45,312 nt of DNA from a virus. Numbering within the stretch: the first letter of the stretch is position 1; each line of letters starts with the position of its first letter. The position numbers and the translations under genes were made by a program. The stretch is taken from IMG/VR virus record IMGVR_UViG_3300034071_001031, positions 1 to 45,312 of that record, one strand, 5' to 3'. Shown piece after piece: positions 16,275 through 44,585 of this stretch. Under the pieces are notes generated by a model. The model did no database searches. It saw nothing but the letters and a program-made list of their open reading frames with translations, and was not told the origin of the DNA.

Positions 16275-16346
16275 CGCGGGATAGAGCAGTGGTAGCTCGT
16301 CAGGCCCATAACCTGAAGGCCGTGAGTTCAATTCTCACTCCCGCTA
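16275..16346 (+). tRNA. tRNA-Met (CAT)
   Basis: Cloverleaf read by eye: D stem GAGC/GCTC, anticodon stem TCAGG/CCTGA with loop CCCATAA (anticodon CAT), T stem GTGAG/CTCAC with loop TTCAATT, acceptor GCGGGA/TCCCGC, discriminator A followed by CC in the DNA. Position 1 is C and position 72 is T, a mismatch. A missing 1:72 pair is a hallmark of initiator tRNA, but the stem pairs nearest the anticodon are A-U, G-C, G-C rather than the usual three G-C. It is the only tRNA found in the window. A perfect palindrome ACCTTTGCAAAGGT starts at 16346. Confidence 0.9.
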
Positions 16347-16374
16347 CCTTTGCAAAGGTTCCACCTCAATGACA

Positions 16375-16693: not shown

Positions 16694-16831
16694 AGAAAGA
16701 TCTTACTCTCTTGTTGACTCTGTGCAACTCCAGTGTATTCTGTGCCTTTCCTTGCATCTGGGTGCGGTTCCATTTTGTTGCGGTTGTCTCTTTCCAGACC
16801 TCGCTTCGGAGCCGCACCCTCTTTTTTGGTA

Positions 16832-16860
16832 TTGACTTATTTTTGAACGTATCGTAGCCT
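16832..16860 (+). promoter_or_regulatory. candidate promoter of the large structured RNA
   Basis: TTGACT (16832-16837), 17 nt, TAGCCT (16855-16860), which keeps the three most conserved -10 positions (T1, A2, T6). Predicted start near 16867, just before the first helices. Confidence 0.45.
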
Positions 16861-16866
16861 CCGCAT

Positions 16867-17598
16867 GTCTGGAAAAGACAGCCGTAAGGTGGGCGCGACA
16901 TACGCCACTAAACCCCGTAACGAGGTATGCAAGGATAAAACCGCCGCACTTACGGATCAGCCATCCGTCCCATAGCCTGAACACATTGCGGCGTGGGAAT
17001 CTCTGGTTTTTGAAAGAAAAAGATATAAGTATTTCTTTCAAGCCTGACACATAAAATATACAAAAATTGTGTCAGCCAACAGAGTAAGCGCGAGGGATAA
17101 TACCCTCGGAGGTCGATTGCGGTTGTTTGAAGGTCTACTAGCGGCTTCGGAGCCTAGATCGCAATCTGTGGAATAAAGCGGAGGACTCACTCATAGGAAT
17201 GAGAATCCAATTTTGACTATGCCTTTGCCCCTGCGGGGGCGAGGTGTAGTCAATCGGTCGGATCTAGCTCAAGGAATTATTAATCCAATGACGGCGGCGT
17301 TCGGGGTTCAGGCGAAAGAGAGCCGCTATATAGGCGGGCGCACGGCTTTAGCCCGCCGAATACCCCCAAAGAAAAAAGAAGAAAAAAACATTGAACACCC
17401 CGAAGGGGATGTGGTCTATTACTCCATGAATAATTTACGGGGGAGAATAGGTTCGACGCGCCATTTAATGCGCGGACTCGGCTGCAATGCCGACTCCTCC
17501 ACCACTTTTGGAGGTGGGGAGACCCAGCATGAAAATGCGAAAGCTTCAAAGGTCGGGGGGCCAATGAAGTCCGCGCCACCCCGCCTCCAATCTCTTTT
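16867..17598 (+). ncRNA. large ornate structured RNA, GOLLD/ROOL-like candidate
   Basis: About 730 nt without a convincing gene but with many perfect or near-perfect helices on the plus strand: 16942-16947 with 16988-16993, enclosing ACGGAT/ATCCGT (16952/16963); a 10-bp stem 17010-17019/17032-17041; CTGACAC/GTGTCAG (17044/17069); CGAGGG/CCCTCG (17091/17103); GATTGCG/CGCAATC (17115/17160) enclosing a UCGG-looped stem; CTCAT/ATGAG (17190/17199); TTGACTA/TAGTCAA (17213/17247) stacked with CCT/AGG and GCCCC/GGGGC; GGCGGGC/GCCCGCC (17333/17351), whose loop can pair with AGCCG at 17321; CGCGC/GCGCG (17457/17470); TCGGC/GCCGA (17478/17489); CCTCCA/TGGAGG (17496/17509). Size, helix density and tRNA neighbourhood fit the giant phage RNAs of the GOLLD/ROOL type. 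The class itself is not proven. Confidence 0.6.
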
Positions 17599-17880
17599 AT
17601 GAAAAAACTACTACTGTTATTAACACTAGCTACAAATATTCAGGCACAAGACGGTAGCTTTTCGGGTACAGTCTTTGATTTGGATTCGGGCCGTATTCAA
17701 GTTATCAACGGATCTGTTGATTCCCCACAACCAAAGGATACCCTTCTTCAGACCATGAGGCGGATCAATGCGGAGTTAAAGGAATCAAACGCCCGTTTAA
17801 GTGCGGAGATTGCGGCCAGCCATCAGCTTGAAGAACTCCGCCGTCAGACAAGACTCCTTCAACAGATTGCCGACAAATGA
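17599..17880 (+). CDS. exported coiled-coil protein, 93 aa
   Basis: MKKLLLLLTLATNIQAQ is a Sec signal peptide (positive start, Leu-rich core, AQ-type cleavage around residue 17). The mature part has a strand region (SGTVFDLDSGRIQVINGSVD) and a C-terminal coiled coil (LQTMRRINAELKESNARLSA). It would act in the periplasm or on the surface. Stop overlaps the next start (ATGA). Confidence 0.7.
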   Translation: MKKLLLLLTLATNIQAQDGSFSGTVFDLDSGRIQVINGSVDSPQPKDTLLQTMRRINAELKESNARLSAEIAASHQLEELRRQTRLLQQIADK

Positions 17881-18524
17881 GCAATTATCTCAACGTCAAT
17901 ATACCGACATTCTTTGCCTTTGTAGACGAGGGATTCTTTTATGATTTGGAACCCAACGTCAATCGCGAAAGGCAGTTAGTCGAGGTATTTGCCTATACGT
18001 CAATCCCACAACGTTGCGGAATGTTTAGTGTGATGACGGAATACGGAAGCCAACACGCCAGAGTTCCGATCCACTATCTCCACACTGATGATGTTGGAGG
18101 GACGTTTTATCCGTTAGACTGGATACAACTCTGGGACTCAATGAGCTACTATTGCTCGGTCAATATTCTGGACTACTGCAAGAATAGAGCGGCAAACATC
18201 ATACTCAAGAACAAATCCTTTGAGTCTGCCAAGTATATGTTCACATTGGACTGGTGCTTCGGGCCTCAATATACTAGCGGCTACGGAGAAATGGCCGCTG
18301 GTCACAAATGTGGCCATGTGTTTGCGGGTGATGGGCAGTATTTCATCCAGCCCAACAATCGTGTGTTATGGATGGACGGGGGATCGTTTATCGCCAAACA
18401 ATTCCCTATGAAGCCCGACTGGAAGGTGTTTAGCCAAGAATTTAGCTGCGAACATACAGGCAGTAGATGGGTTAGTGAAAGCGAGGAGGAACTATGGTTT
18501 TACGACTTCAAAGAACAGGGATAG
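17877..18524 (+). CDS. conserved phage hypothetical protein, 215 aa
   Basis: Strand- and aromatic-rich: FFAFVDEGFFYDLEPNVNRE, then ARVPIHYLHTDDVG. Its C-terminal part is GHKCGHVFAGDGQYFIQPNN, RVLWMDGGSFIAKQFP, then WVSESEEELWFYDFKEQG. A C-terminal relic of the same family lies at 18809-18958 and another at 19880-20032, so this family has been duplicated locally. No enzyme motif recognised; a virion-associated or morphogenesis role is possible. Confidence 0.7.
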   Translation: MSNYLNVNIPTFFAFVDEGFFYDLEPNVNRERQLVEVFAYTSIPQRCGMFSVMTEYGSQHARVPIHYLHTDDVGGTFYPLDWIQLWDSMSYYCSVNILDYCKNRAANIILKNKSFESAKYMFTLDWCFGPQYTSGYGEMAAGHKCGHVFAGDGQYFIQPNNRVLWMDGGSFIAKQFPMKPDWKVFSQEFSCEHTGSRWVSESEEELWFYDFKEQG

Positions 18525-24059: not shown

Positions 24060-24822
24060 TGATTACAAGTTCCGCTTCGTAGGTTGAGTCTTCGGGAATC
24101 TTCATTGATTCCAGTTTGGTTGCAATATTAATCTGAATGGCATTCTGTTGATTCGGGCCTTCTGAAAAGTTGATAGATGCAGCTTCAGCAAGCTGTTTGA
24201 TGTTTCGCATCATGCCAAGAGCCTCCATGCCGTCTAGGTCTTGCGCGGCATCAGCTGCTTTAACCAACACTTTGCCAGTTAGAAACTTGATCGATTTTTT
24301 CATAGTCTCTAGTGATGCCGTGATTTCCGACATCAAGGTAGGCACACCATCGTCTTCCCAAGGGGCTGGAGATTGCTCGTTGGTAAGACGCTCACGGCAC
24401 TGAATCCAGCGTTGAGTATCGCGCCATAAACAAACAGTTGATTCACTGACCTTTAGTTCTTCGGCAATATCTTTCAGCGTCCGCCCCGAACAATACATGG
24501 AAAATCCCTTGATGCATTCAAGCCTGCGTCTCTTGTCCATCTCTTCCATTTTGGCTGGAGGCGGAACCAAGGCTATAGGTCTTTCAATATCCCAAGGATA
24601 AAGGTTTTCTTTTTCGGAATTATCTTTCCAAATTTTGACATGGTCATCCCATTTCTCACTATAGATCAACTTTTCTAGCGTAGCTTTGTGCTTGGTTTCC
24701 AAAGCCTTCATCACTTCTGGCATGTCCCTGCCAGCGGCATAAAGCCTAAATGCGTTTTGTTTTTTAAGTCGGTTTTCTGGAGCATCCCAATCACGCTCTC
24801 CGCTCTTGCGCTTTTTCTGCAT
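24052..24822 (-). CDS. terS: putative terminase small subunit / HTH protein, 256 aa
   Basis: Residues about 95-135 read SMYCSGRTLKDIAEELKVSE followed by STVCLWRDTQRW, a phage terminase-small-subunit-type HTH. Later helices (ASLETMKKSIKFLTGKVLVK, LGMMRNIKQLAEAASI) suit an oligomerisation domain. It faces the TerL gene with 28 nt between starts, so the packaging genes are divergent rather than co-directional. A pure regulator is the alternative. Confidence 0.65.
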   Translation of the reverse strand: MQKKRKSGERDWDAPENRLKKQNAFRLYAAGRDMPEVMKALETKHKATLEKLIYSEKWDDHVKIWKDNSEKENLYPWDIERPIALVPPPAKMEEMDKRRRLECIKGFSMYCSGRTLKDIAEELKVSESTVCLWRDTQRWIQCRERLTNEQSPAPWEDDGVPTLMSEITASLETMKKSIKFLTGKVLVKAADAAQDLDGMEALGMMRNIKQLAEAASINFSEGPNQQNAIQINIATKLESMKIPEDSTYEAELVINE

Positions 24823-24850
24823 CCAGATTAGTTTAGTAGAAATTTCTCAA

Positions 24851-26692
24851 ATGGCAACAGTTGATCAGGGGATAGAAAAATACGGTAGGTTGTGGTTACC
24901 CAAAGACGGACAGGCAATTACGCCGATCCGTATTGAGATGGACGCTTTCTTACAAGGTTTGACCCCAGAAGGGGGAGGATTAGGTAAGGCCCGACATTAC
25001 AGGAATATTGTTTCAGCTATTTGGCCAACTTTTCAATGGCATAGATGGGCAGAATTGAGCGCACAAGCATTTTGTAACCAGACTTATGAGGTTGATGAAA
25101 CTACGGGCAATAGATTTGTCAGAAGCGTGACGGGTCTGGCTGGCGGAACGGACTCAGGAAAGTCTTATGGAATGGCCGCATTTGCGCTTGTCAATTGGTT
25201 CTGCGATCCAATCAACACGATGACCATTGTGGTTTCTACGAGTAAAATAGATGCCAAGCAGCGTATTTGGGCAGCACTGGTCAAGATGTACCGCGAAGCC
25301 CGAAACATGGGATTAGCCTCTGGCAGGCTCATTGAGTCCATGGACATCATCAAGCTATCAGACGAAGAGGGGGCTATTATCGACCCCGAAACGGGGGTAA
25401 GTGACGCATCCTCCATCATGCTCCTAGCGGCTGGCGACGAATACAAGGATGATGCCCAGAAACGGCTTCAAGGTAAAAAAAATCGTCGTATCGTGTTGAT
25501 AATAGACGAGTTACAAGACTGCTCTGCATCCGTAATCAACGAAGCCGTCTGGGGGTTCAAGGGCGCACAAGAACTCTATATCGTCGGCGCTGGGAACCCG
25601 TCTTCCATCTTCGATCCACACGGAAAATTTTGCGAACCTATCAAGGGCTGGATGAGCGTGGATGAGGAAACCCCCAACTGGAAGATACGGGTGGCTGGTA
25701 TTGAGGGCGTGTGCATCCGATTTGACTCTGAAAAAGACAACCCTAACCAGCAATCCTTCGATGCTGGCAAGGGACTGCGCTATCCATTCCTTCCAAAACC
25801 CAATGATGTGGCTTTGGCCCGAAAAGAGCTTGGAGAGCTTAATCCTCAATATTGGAGAAAGTTTAGAGGATTCTGGCCTCCAGCAGATGCCGATGATTCC
25901 ACGATTGTCTCTGATATTCTACTGGCTCGTCATGGGGCTTTGGACAAGCCAATATGGGACGGAACCCCGAAAGATATCGCGGGTATCGACCCAAGCTACA
26001 CAGAGGGAGGCGACAGGTTTGTCTTCACTCATCTCAAGTATGGGCGACTAATCTCTGGGAAGTGGGCAATAGCTGTTGAAAAACAGTATGTCCTGAACCG
26101 AAGGGCTGGGTCTCAGGAAGACTTTCAATACGAGATGATCCAGCAAATCCATGACCTGTCTCTGAAATTGGGTATACCAAATCAATGGATGGGCGTTGAC
26201 GCTTCGGCTGGTGGTATTTTTTGGTCTATTGGAGAACGAGAACTTCTAAAAGGTTGGCATGCAGTAAGTTTTGCGGGAGCGGCGTCAGATCTCCCTGTCA
26301 GCGCCCAATACGCCATGAGAAACGAGGCTACTGGAAAACCCCAAGTCGGCAAGGAATTGTTCCACAACATGGCTTCCGAACTCTGTTTTGCTGCTCGTTA
26401 TTTCTTGGAATGCGAGCAACTTAAGGGGATTACGCCCGATTTGGCTTGGGAGATGACTCAGAGAAAATATGTGCGCCGAACCCGAAAGATCATCATTGAG
26501 TCCAAGACCGACATGAAAAAGAGGATTGGAAAGTCTCCCGATTTATTTGACTCATTTGCAGTAGGATTGTTTGTTGCCCGCAAGGTATTCGGGGCCATGG
26601 CTGGAAGTGAGGCGATTGAAGAAAAGAATCGGCTCAACAAAGAATCATTCAAGAAACTCAAACAGTCCTTGACTCTAAAGAAGAATTGGTAG
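24851..26692 (+). CDS. terL: terminase large subunit
   Basis: ATP-driven DNA packaging motor and nuclease. 613 aa. Walker A GGTDSGKS at 98-105, Walker B VLIIDE at 215-220, and a C-terminal nuclease domain with AGIDPSYTEGGD, GVDASAGG and DLFDSFAVGLF supplying acidic metal ligands. The start MATVDQG is preferred; the longer frame to 24806 adds non-conserved residues overlapping the divergent gene. Confidence 0.93.
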   Translation: MATVDQGIEKYGRLWLPKDGQAITPIRIEMDAFLQGLTPEGGGLGKARHYRNIVSAIWPTFQWHRWAELSAQAFCNQTYEVDETTGNRFVRSVTGLAGGTDSGKSYGMAAFALVNWFCDPINTMTIVVSTSKIDAKQRIWAALVKMYREARNMGLASGRLIESMDIIKLSDEEGAIIDPETGVSDASSIMLLAAGDEYKDDAQKRLQGKKNRRIVLIIDELQDCSASVINEAVWGFKGAQELYIVGAGNPSSIFDPHGKFCEPIKGWMSVDEETPNWKIRVAGIEGVCIRFDSEKDNPNQQSFDAGKGLRYPFLPKPNDVALARKELGELNPQYWRKFRGFWPPADADDSTIVSDILLARHGALDKPIWDGTPKDIAGIDPSYTEGGDRFVFTHLKYGRLISGKWAIAVEKQYVLNRRAGSQEDFQYEMIQQIHDLSLKLGIPNQWMGVDASAGGIFWSIGERELLKGWHAVSFAGAASDLPVSAQYAMRNEATGKPQVGKELFHNMASELCFAARYFLECEQLKGITPDLAWEMTQRKYVRRTRKIIIESKTDMKKRIGKSPDLFDSFAVGLFVARKVFGAMAGSEAIEEKNRLNKESFKKLKQSLTLKKNW

Positions 26693-44363: not shown

Positions 44364-44585
44364 ATGGCCAATGGATTACTATCCTTCAGCTTGCCCGAAG
44401 AACAGGTTGAGTTTGAGCAAGCAGTTAAGGCGGGTGATATGTATTGCGTTCTTAATGACCTTGATAACGAGCTACGCAATCATCTCAAGCACAATGCTTA
44501 TCCTCATTGGAATAACGCTACTGTTGAAGAGATTCGCCAAATTTTGAACGATTTGATGGATAGTAGGTCTATCCATTTTAACTAA
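44364..44585 (+). CDS. conserved small phage protein, 73 aa
   Basis: MANGLLSFSLPEEQVEFEQA, then DMYCVLNDLDNELRNHLKHN. It has the pattern LSFSLPEE..EF..A......... L.DLD..LR.....  seen in many phage proteins. Function unknown. Confidence 0.75.
   Translation: MANGLLSFSLPEEQVEFEQAVKAGDMYCVLNDLDNELRNHLKHNAYPHWNNATVEEIRQILNDLMDSRSIHFN

Follow-up and report, generated by a model that had tools for sequence, protein, structure and literature searches.

A structured non-coding RNA of about 0.5 kb in a group of phages and its candidate same-strand antisense partner

Layout of the locus

The window analyzed here is a stretch of 45,312 nt (IMG/VR record IMGVR_UViG_3300034071_001031, positions 1–45,312), within which the region 16867–17598 was examined. 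A sequence-only reading had proposed a single structured RNA of 730 nt in this region, placed next to a tRNA-Met. The tRNA-Met gene is located at 16275–16348. Further along the plus strand, a sigma-70-like promoter (TTGACT-N16-TATTCT, 16714–16741) precedes a predicted small RNA (16746–16827, start approximate). The predicted promoter of the big RNA, P2 (16832–16866, plus strand), comprises TTGACT (16832–16837), TTGAAC (16843–16848) and TAGCCT (16855–16860), with a GTC at 16867. The big RNA itself occupies 16867 to about 17365 on the same strand, its 3' end being approximate. It is followed by the phage promoter P3 (TTGAAC-N17-GTCTAT, 17391–17419, plus strand), which serves the downstream unit.

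P3 is a member of a recurrent class of sites. The spacing between TTGAAC and GTC[TA] over all loci was sharply distributed, with 138 distinct sites at N17, 28 at 18 and at most 16 at the other spacings tested. In the window, the class recurs at 44544 (+), 11843 (−) and 2578 (−). An ATG often lies only 6–12 nt downstream of TTGAAC-N17-GTC[TA]A sites, suggesting leaderless mRNAs. The TTGAAC-N17/18-GTC arrangement of P2 was kept in the lineages examined, including those without the small RNA, and P2 usually also carries TTGAC and TANNNT hexamers. The promoter proposed earlier at 16832–16860 overlaps P2, and its sequence is conserved in relatives.

Because P3 belongs to the phage promoter class, the big RNA is taken to end before it, near 17365. 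Judged from its promoter, the sequence beyond about 17390 forms a transcription unit of its own and is not part of the big RNA. The idea of one 730-nt RNA was thus abandoned, as P3 divides the stretch into the big RNA, about 0.5 kb long, and a separate leader. No clear terminator was found between the big RNA and P3, so that transcripts may read through into the downstream unit.

Two structured elements lie beyond P3 on the plus strand, outside the big RNA. The first (17439–17504) is a tRNA/tmRNA-like domain of 65 nt with a 7-bp acceptor stem (GGGGGAG/CTCCTCC), GGTTCGAC and, in the window, an ACCA end; it has no anticodon or tag frame (fold z = −3.5). Clearer homologs with a GGATTCGACG motif and a T-arm were found at L047:3091–3156 and L048:4195–4259. 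The same region holds a tRNA-Met in L045 and a homing-endonuclease-like gene in L017. The second element (17508–17591, z = −2.8) has a closing stem of 10–12 bp and a GNRA-type hairpin, and it directly precedes the next start codon. In different relatives, it stands just before two unrelated genes (ORF93 or an MNRQEAI protein).

Structure and distribution of the big RNA

On the basis of the A1, A2 and A3 alignments and of the covariance models R1 and R2, 16867 to about 17365 (+) encodes a conserved, structured non-coding RNA. The proposal of a large structured RNA on the plus strand, with a predicted promoter of its own and a structure conserved in related phages, was thereby supported. The whole stretch folds better than shuffled sequences (z = −5.4). 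The reverse strand gave a similar value (z = −5.55), so folding energy alone cannot set the strand. The big RNA was assigned to the plus strand because G-U pairs far exceed A-C combinations at the proposed pairs (54 versus 4 and 38 versus 13), together with the covariation.

In the 5' domain, helix H1 (16888–16892 with 16905–16909) closes a loop with a conserved ATA, and helix H2 (16916–16920 with 16950–16954) encloses the invariant core GGTATGCAAGG..CCGCC. Both showed changes on both sides in 5/5 pairs. Helix H4 (16969–16973 with 16993–16997) was paired in 100% of cells, with both-side changes in two pairs. A pseudoknot candidate between GGRU (16933–16936) and AUCC (16963–16966) was paired in 33/33 sequences; its sole varying pair is A-U or G-U, and it counts as weak evidence because it is mostly invariant.

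The middle domain contains helix Ha (17091–17096 with 17103–17108), paired in 100% of cells, with both-side changes from CG to AU and from GC to CG; its counterparts are CCAGA/TCTGG in L045 and CCAGC/GCTGG in L116. Helix Hb (17115–17121 with 17160–17166), with an inner GGC..GGAGCC hairpin, was likewise paired in 100% of cells and changed on both sides in three pairs. In L116 and L045, its strands are unrelated in sequence yet complementary. The stacked stem Hd (17214–17252; TGACTA, CCT, GCCCC and their partners) contributes to the covariation of this domain and is retained with different letters in L045, L048, L116 and L015. The folding energies were −18.3 kcal/mol for the hairpin 17115–17166 and −27.2 kcal/mol for the stacked stem 17213–17253.

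These compensatory changes were well above those in shuffled controls. For 33 distinct sequences of the 5' domain, 95.7% of the proposed-pair cells were standard, and 67 double-change cells were counted; shuffles gave 20.8 ± 4.7, and slid controls did not exceed 11. The 20 sequences of the middle domain gave 95.4% standard cells and 38 double-change cells, as compared with 5.9 ± 2.3 and 9, respectively. The shuffle comparison overstates independence in both cases, because the sequences are related and the counts are not independent events.

The helices named in the sequence-only reading (17010–17041, 17115–17166, 17213–17253 and 17333–17357) are all present and fold as described, although not all belong to the conserved RNA. 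The 10-bp stem 17010–17041 exists, but the stems at 17010–17080 sit in a lineage-specific insert of two hairpins (17007–17083) that is restricted to the closest relatives. At this site, other lineages carry either a short hairpin (CCAGAG/CTCTGG) or a long one that differs from the insert. In the window, L028, L030 and L110, whose RNAs are otherwise near-identical, it is occupied by the short stem or by one of two unrelated long inserts. The 3' hairpin (GGCGGGC/GCCCGCC, 17333–17357) is considered accessory because it is absent from L045, L048, L083 and L116. Hairpins have thus been exchanged or lost between lineages at 17007–17083 and at 17289–17359. The loop of the 3' hairpin can form 7 bp with AGAGCCG near 17321, and relatives retaining that segment retain some such pairing (−8 to −11 kcal/mol). 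The pseudoknot suggested earlier can therefore form, but it competes with a GCGGC/GCCGC helix and is a possibility only.

Model R1 was built on window positions 16880–17001; the E-values of the models are rough. R1 scored the four divergent loci L116, L121, L045 and L048 at 88–96 bits. Model R2, made without these four, placed them where R1 predicts (E = 3e-7 to 2e-4). R2 also matched an unrelated terminator at a different place in L126 with 27.6 bits, and its matches in the four loci therefore count only alongside those of R1.

Relatives were collected as 80 IMG/VR loci via the protein encoded at 17877–18524, and alignment of their intergenic regions revealed a conserved but mosaic non-coding region. 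A scan of IMG/VR for the invariant core (GGTATGCAAGGRTNANNCCGC) gave 45 contigs; a looser pattern returned the identical 45, and R1 added L057. R1 found a single copy per record in 10 of the 12 larger contigs and none in two (70 and 73 kb). The site is syntenic, with a leftward wHTH gene and other genes on one side and rightward ORF215, DnaB and terminase genes on the other. The tRNA-Met invoked earlier as context is indeed nearby, but it is a neighbor only in the window, L028, L029 and L112, lies downstream in L045, and is not conserved.

No match to the RNA was found in cultured phages and plasmids. Five matches to the core of about 21 nt in bacterial and archaeal genomes were attributed to chance, R1 giving 17–24 bits on the core alone or nothing. 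A tblastn search of 50,697 phage records (E 1e-5) gave no match to the terminase large subunit (window 24806–26692), and the identity of ORF215 to phage records did not exceed 37%. This indicates a phage group without a close cultured relative.

Loci of the L013 type were considered as carriers of a divergent big RNA and rejected, since a minus-strand gene is found there instead. In L013, L026, L036, L040, L053 and L022, which have no big RNA, this gene lies between the HNH gene and P3. It has a conserved RSN[RK]TNW motif. A role as replication initiator was not supported, the only match being a weak one to NUMOD4 in one of its two forms. These loci also carry an element of about 220 nt with compensatory inverted repeats (ATGAAACAAG/CTTGTTTCAT versus ATGAACACTG/AGTAGTGTTCAT), perhaps another structured RNA.

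The upstream small RNA and its predicted pairing

The predicted small RNA consists largely of a 12-bp hairpin (16760–16819) followed by a U-run (16820–16827; fold z = −6.1), a combination that resembles a large-loop intrinsic terminator. The hairpin, GGGTGCGG/CCGCACCC or GGGCGGGG/CCCCGCC followed by a T-run, was found in 29 loci representing 22 distinct loop/target pairs. In all of these, promoter, 12-bp hairpin, loop region of about 40 nt and U-run lie between the HNH gene and P2. Relatives keep TTGACA/T and a TANNNT-type −10 element in the promoter, with differing spacer letters.

Within the loop region, the candidate antisense segment TTGCGGTTGTCTCTTTCCAGAC (about 22 nt, 16778–16799, plus strand) is the complement of the big RNA's 5' end and co-varies with it. 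In 22/22 distinct pairs, this complementarity covers about the first 25 nt of the big RNA, with sequences that are lineage-specific. Mean duplex energies were −34.5 kcal/mol with the loop's own target, −23.0 kcal/mol with targets of other lineages and −20.2 kcal/mol for shuffled loops. When 12 upstream bases were included, target nucleotides 1–8 were paired in 21–22 of the 22 cases, whereas the base preceding GTC was paired in three. Such a sharp edge at GTC is expected if transcription begins there; weaker loop pairing was also seen further upstream of it.

Because the loop and its target are non-overlapping sequences of one strand, their complementarity is not automatic and must be selected. 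Whole-locus searches for complementarity yield chance segments of similar ungapped score. A single match is therefore insufficient, and the weight lies on position, register and co-variation. The big RNAs of L030 and L031 are 97% identical in the core and 58% in the target, and those of the window and L003 are 96% and 62% identical, respectively. Near-identical cores with unrelated loop/target pairs imply that this cassette either is swapped or evolves more quickly than the remaining sequence. Searches for the hairpin gave nothing in the most divergent lineages (L045, L047, L048, L083, L088, L116 and L121), nor did the pattern used detect it in L105. This implies that antisense control is not required for every member.

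Interpretation and relation to known RNAs

Taken together, the comparisons make it probable that the locus is a two-RNA module, in which a new, stand-alone class of phage RNA of about 0.5 kb, absent from Rfam, is placed under same-strand antisense control. Transcription of the big RNA would start from a phage-type promoter at the point where the leftward and rightward genes diverge. A host-type promoter upstream on the same strand would yield the small RNA of about 80 nt, ending in its large-loop terminator. The loop of the small RNA would pair with the big RNA in two blocks, at nucleotides 1–8 and about 15–26. This pairing would open the big RNA's own 5' hairpin of the GUC..GAC type, which is discernible by eye in most lineages. 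It may act negatively, either by preventing the big RNA from folding as it is made or by tagging it for cleavage. The level of the big RNA might thereby be set by genome dose and infection phase, as in ColE1 RNA I/RNA II or P1/P7 c4.

Alternatively, both parts could belong to one long RNA starting near 16745, with the upstream hairpin as its 5' domain and the loop pairing in cis with 16867–16892. The big RNA would then work alone, as an elaborate scaffold or oligomer akin to GOLLD and ROOL. The shared strand, the separation of only about 90 nt and the covarying complementarity fit such a molecule. We nevertheless regard it as unlikely, because the hairpin ends in a U-run like that of an intrinsic terminator, and the TTGAAC..GTC promoter in between is kept in lineages that have no hairpin.

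The big RNA might also be the 5' part of the downstream mRNA, a cis-acting leader that controls this mRNA through antitermination or attenuation and is switched by the small RNA. Its fixed place upstream of the rightward genes and the absence of a clear terminator before P3 would suit this role, but P3 supplies those genes with a promoter of their own, and the distance to P3 ranges from 267 to 575 nt with inserts. Some close relatives without the big RNA retain both P3 and the genes behind it, a point in favor of a stand-alone module. A leader thus seems quite unlikely.

A replication primer appears improbable. In this reading, the big RNA would act as a preprimer at the phage origin in the manner of RNA II, with copy number controlled by the small RNA as by RNA I. 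A structured RNA with predicted antisense control, an A-rich tract at 17366–17388, the divergent junction and a DnaB gene about 4 kb away are compatible with this role. Against it, the cumulative GC skew minimum at the RNA is only local, with global minima elsewhere in three contigs, and the big RNA is absent from close relatives. That the region is no RNA gene, but codes for protein or is a repeat region at the DNA level, is scarcely credible: open frames of 99–129 aa span it, but, as the earlier judgment of no convincing gene had it, they lack a Pfam or other family match and are broken by indels in relatives, and the compensatory pairing is strong, with its G-U excess on one strand.

Comparison with Rfam 15 gave only tRNA matches in the window and none in the 14 phage loci tested. 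The GOLLD, ROOL and group I/II intron models matched the region neither at the gathering threshold nor at E up to 10, the tmRNA models gave no match at the gathering threshold, and the Rfam C4 model did not match it either. By covariance model, the big RNA is thus not a GOLLD, ROOL, intron or tmRNA member, and membership in GOLLD or ROOL, which its size and context had brought to mind, was not borne out for the window or the related loci. ARAGORN found no tmRNA; the only tmRNA matches (17475–17533) were sub-threshold and outside the big RNA. Phage group I/II introns are similar in being large structured RNAs with HNH endonuclease genes nearby, but the big RNA has its own predicted promoter and no interrupted gene. 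It lies between leftward and rightward genes, and relatives without it keep intact neighbors.

Among known RNAs, GOLLD and ROOL come closest in kind, as non-coding RNAs that are likewise large, elaborate and phage-borne. GOLLD assembles into a 14-mer RNA nanocage and ROOL into a homo-oligomeric nanocage. They too are sometimes near a tRNA-Met; GOLLD env-38 sits downstream of one (PMC12286853). The big RNA differs in being smaller (about 0.5 kb) and unmatched in Rfam, in lacking a conserved tRNA neighbor and, in most lineages, in having a dedicated candidate antisense small RNA. Phage ICP1 carries an abundant non-coding RNA of about 800 nt (PMC7567579), likewise large, ORF-less and in no need of a tRNA; sequence comparison with it was through the search of the phage collection, which gave no RNA match.

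The predicted regulation resembles two known systems. ColE1 RNA I pairs with the 5' part of the structured RNA II of about 0.5 kb, and its specificity varies between types. RNA I is transcribed from the strand opposite RNA II, which makes the complementarity automatic. Here, a similar pairing of a small RNA with the 5' part of a structured RNA of about 0.5 kb is predicted, but between two separate same-strand sequences that must co-evolve. The c4 RNA shares a strand with its target and is encoded ahead of it. In P1 and P7, the complementary stretches of this antisense RNA are probably in loops, and its specificity differs between the related phages (PMC12197685). The locus described here shares with c4 a loop that is complementary to a downstream same-strand target and changes between types. 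The target of c4 is the ant mRNA, whereas that of the small RNA would be a structured non-coding RNA. From these analogies we infer that control by the small RNA would be negative and type-specific, the latter in view of the joint changes of small RNA and target from lineage to lineage.

To our knowledge, GOLLD, ROOL and similarly large phage RNAs have no established job. The big RNA would be a further large phage RNA class, unrelated to these two, with a partner that predicts a specific, testable interaction. Its natural variants differ mainly in the partner interaction, and deletion or swap of the 22-nt loop would open a direct route to function of a kind that is not available for GOLLD or ROOL. 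More tentatively, a rapidly diversifying same-strand antisense partner may set the activity of the big RNA, such that the phages form RNA-defined compatibility (superinfection) groups. If so, an incoming phage would have its big RNA silenced by the small RNA of another phage only when the two are of the same type.
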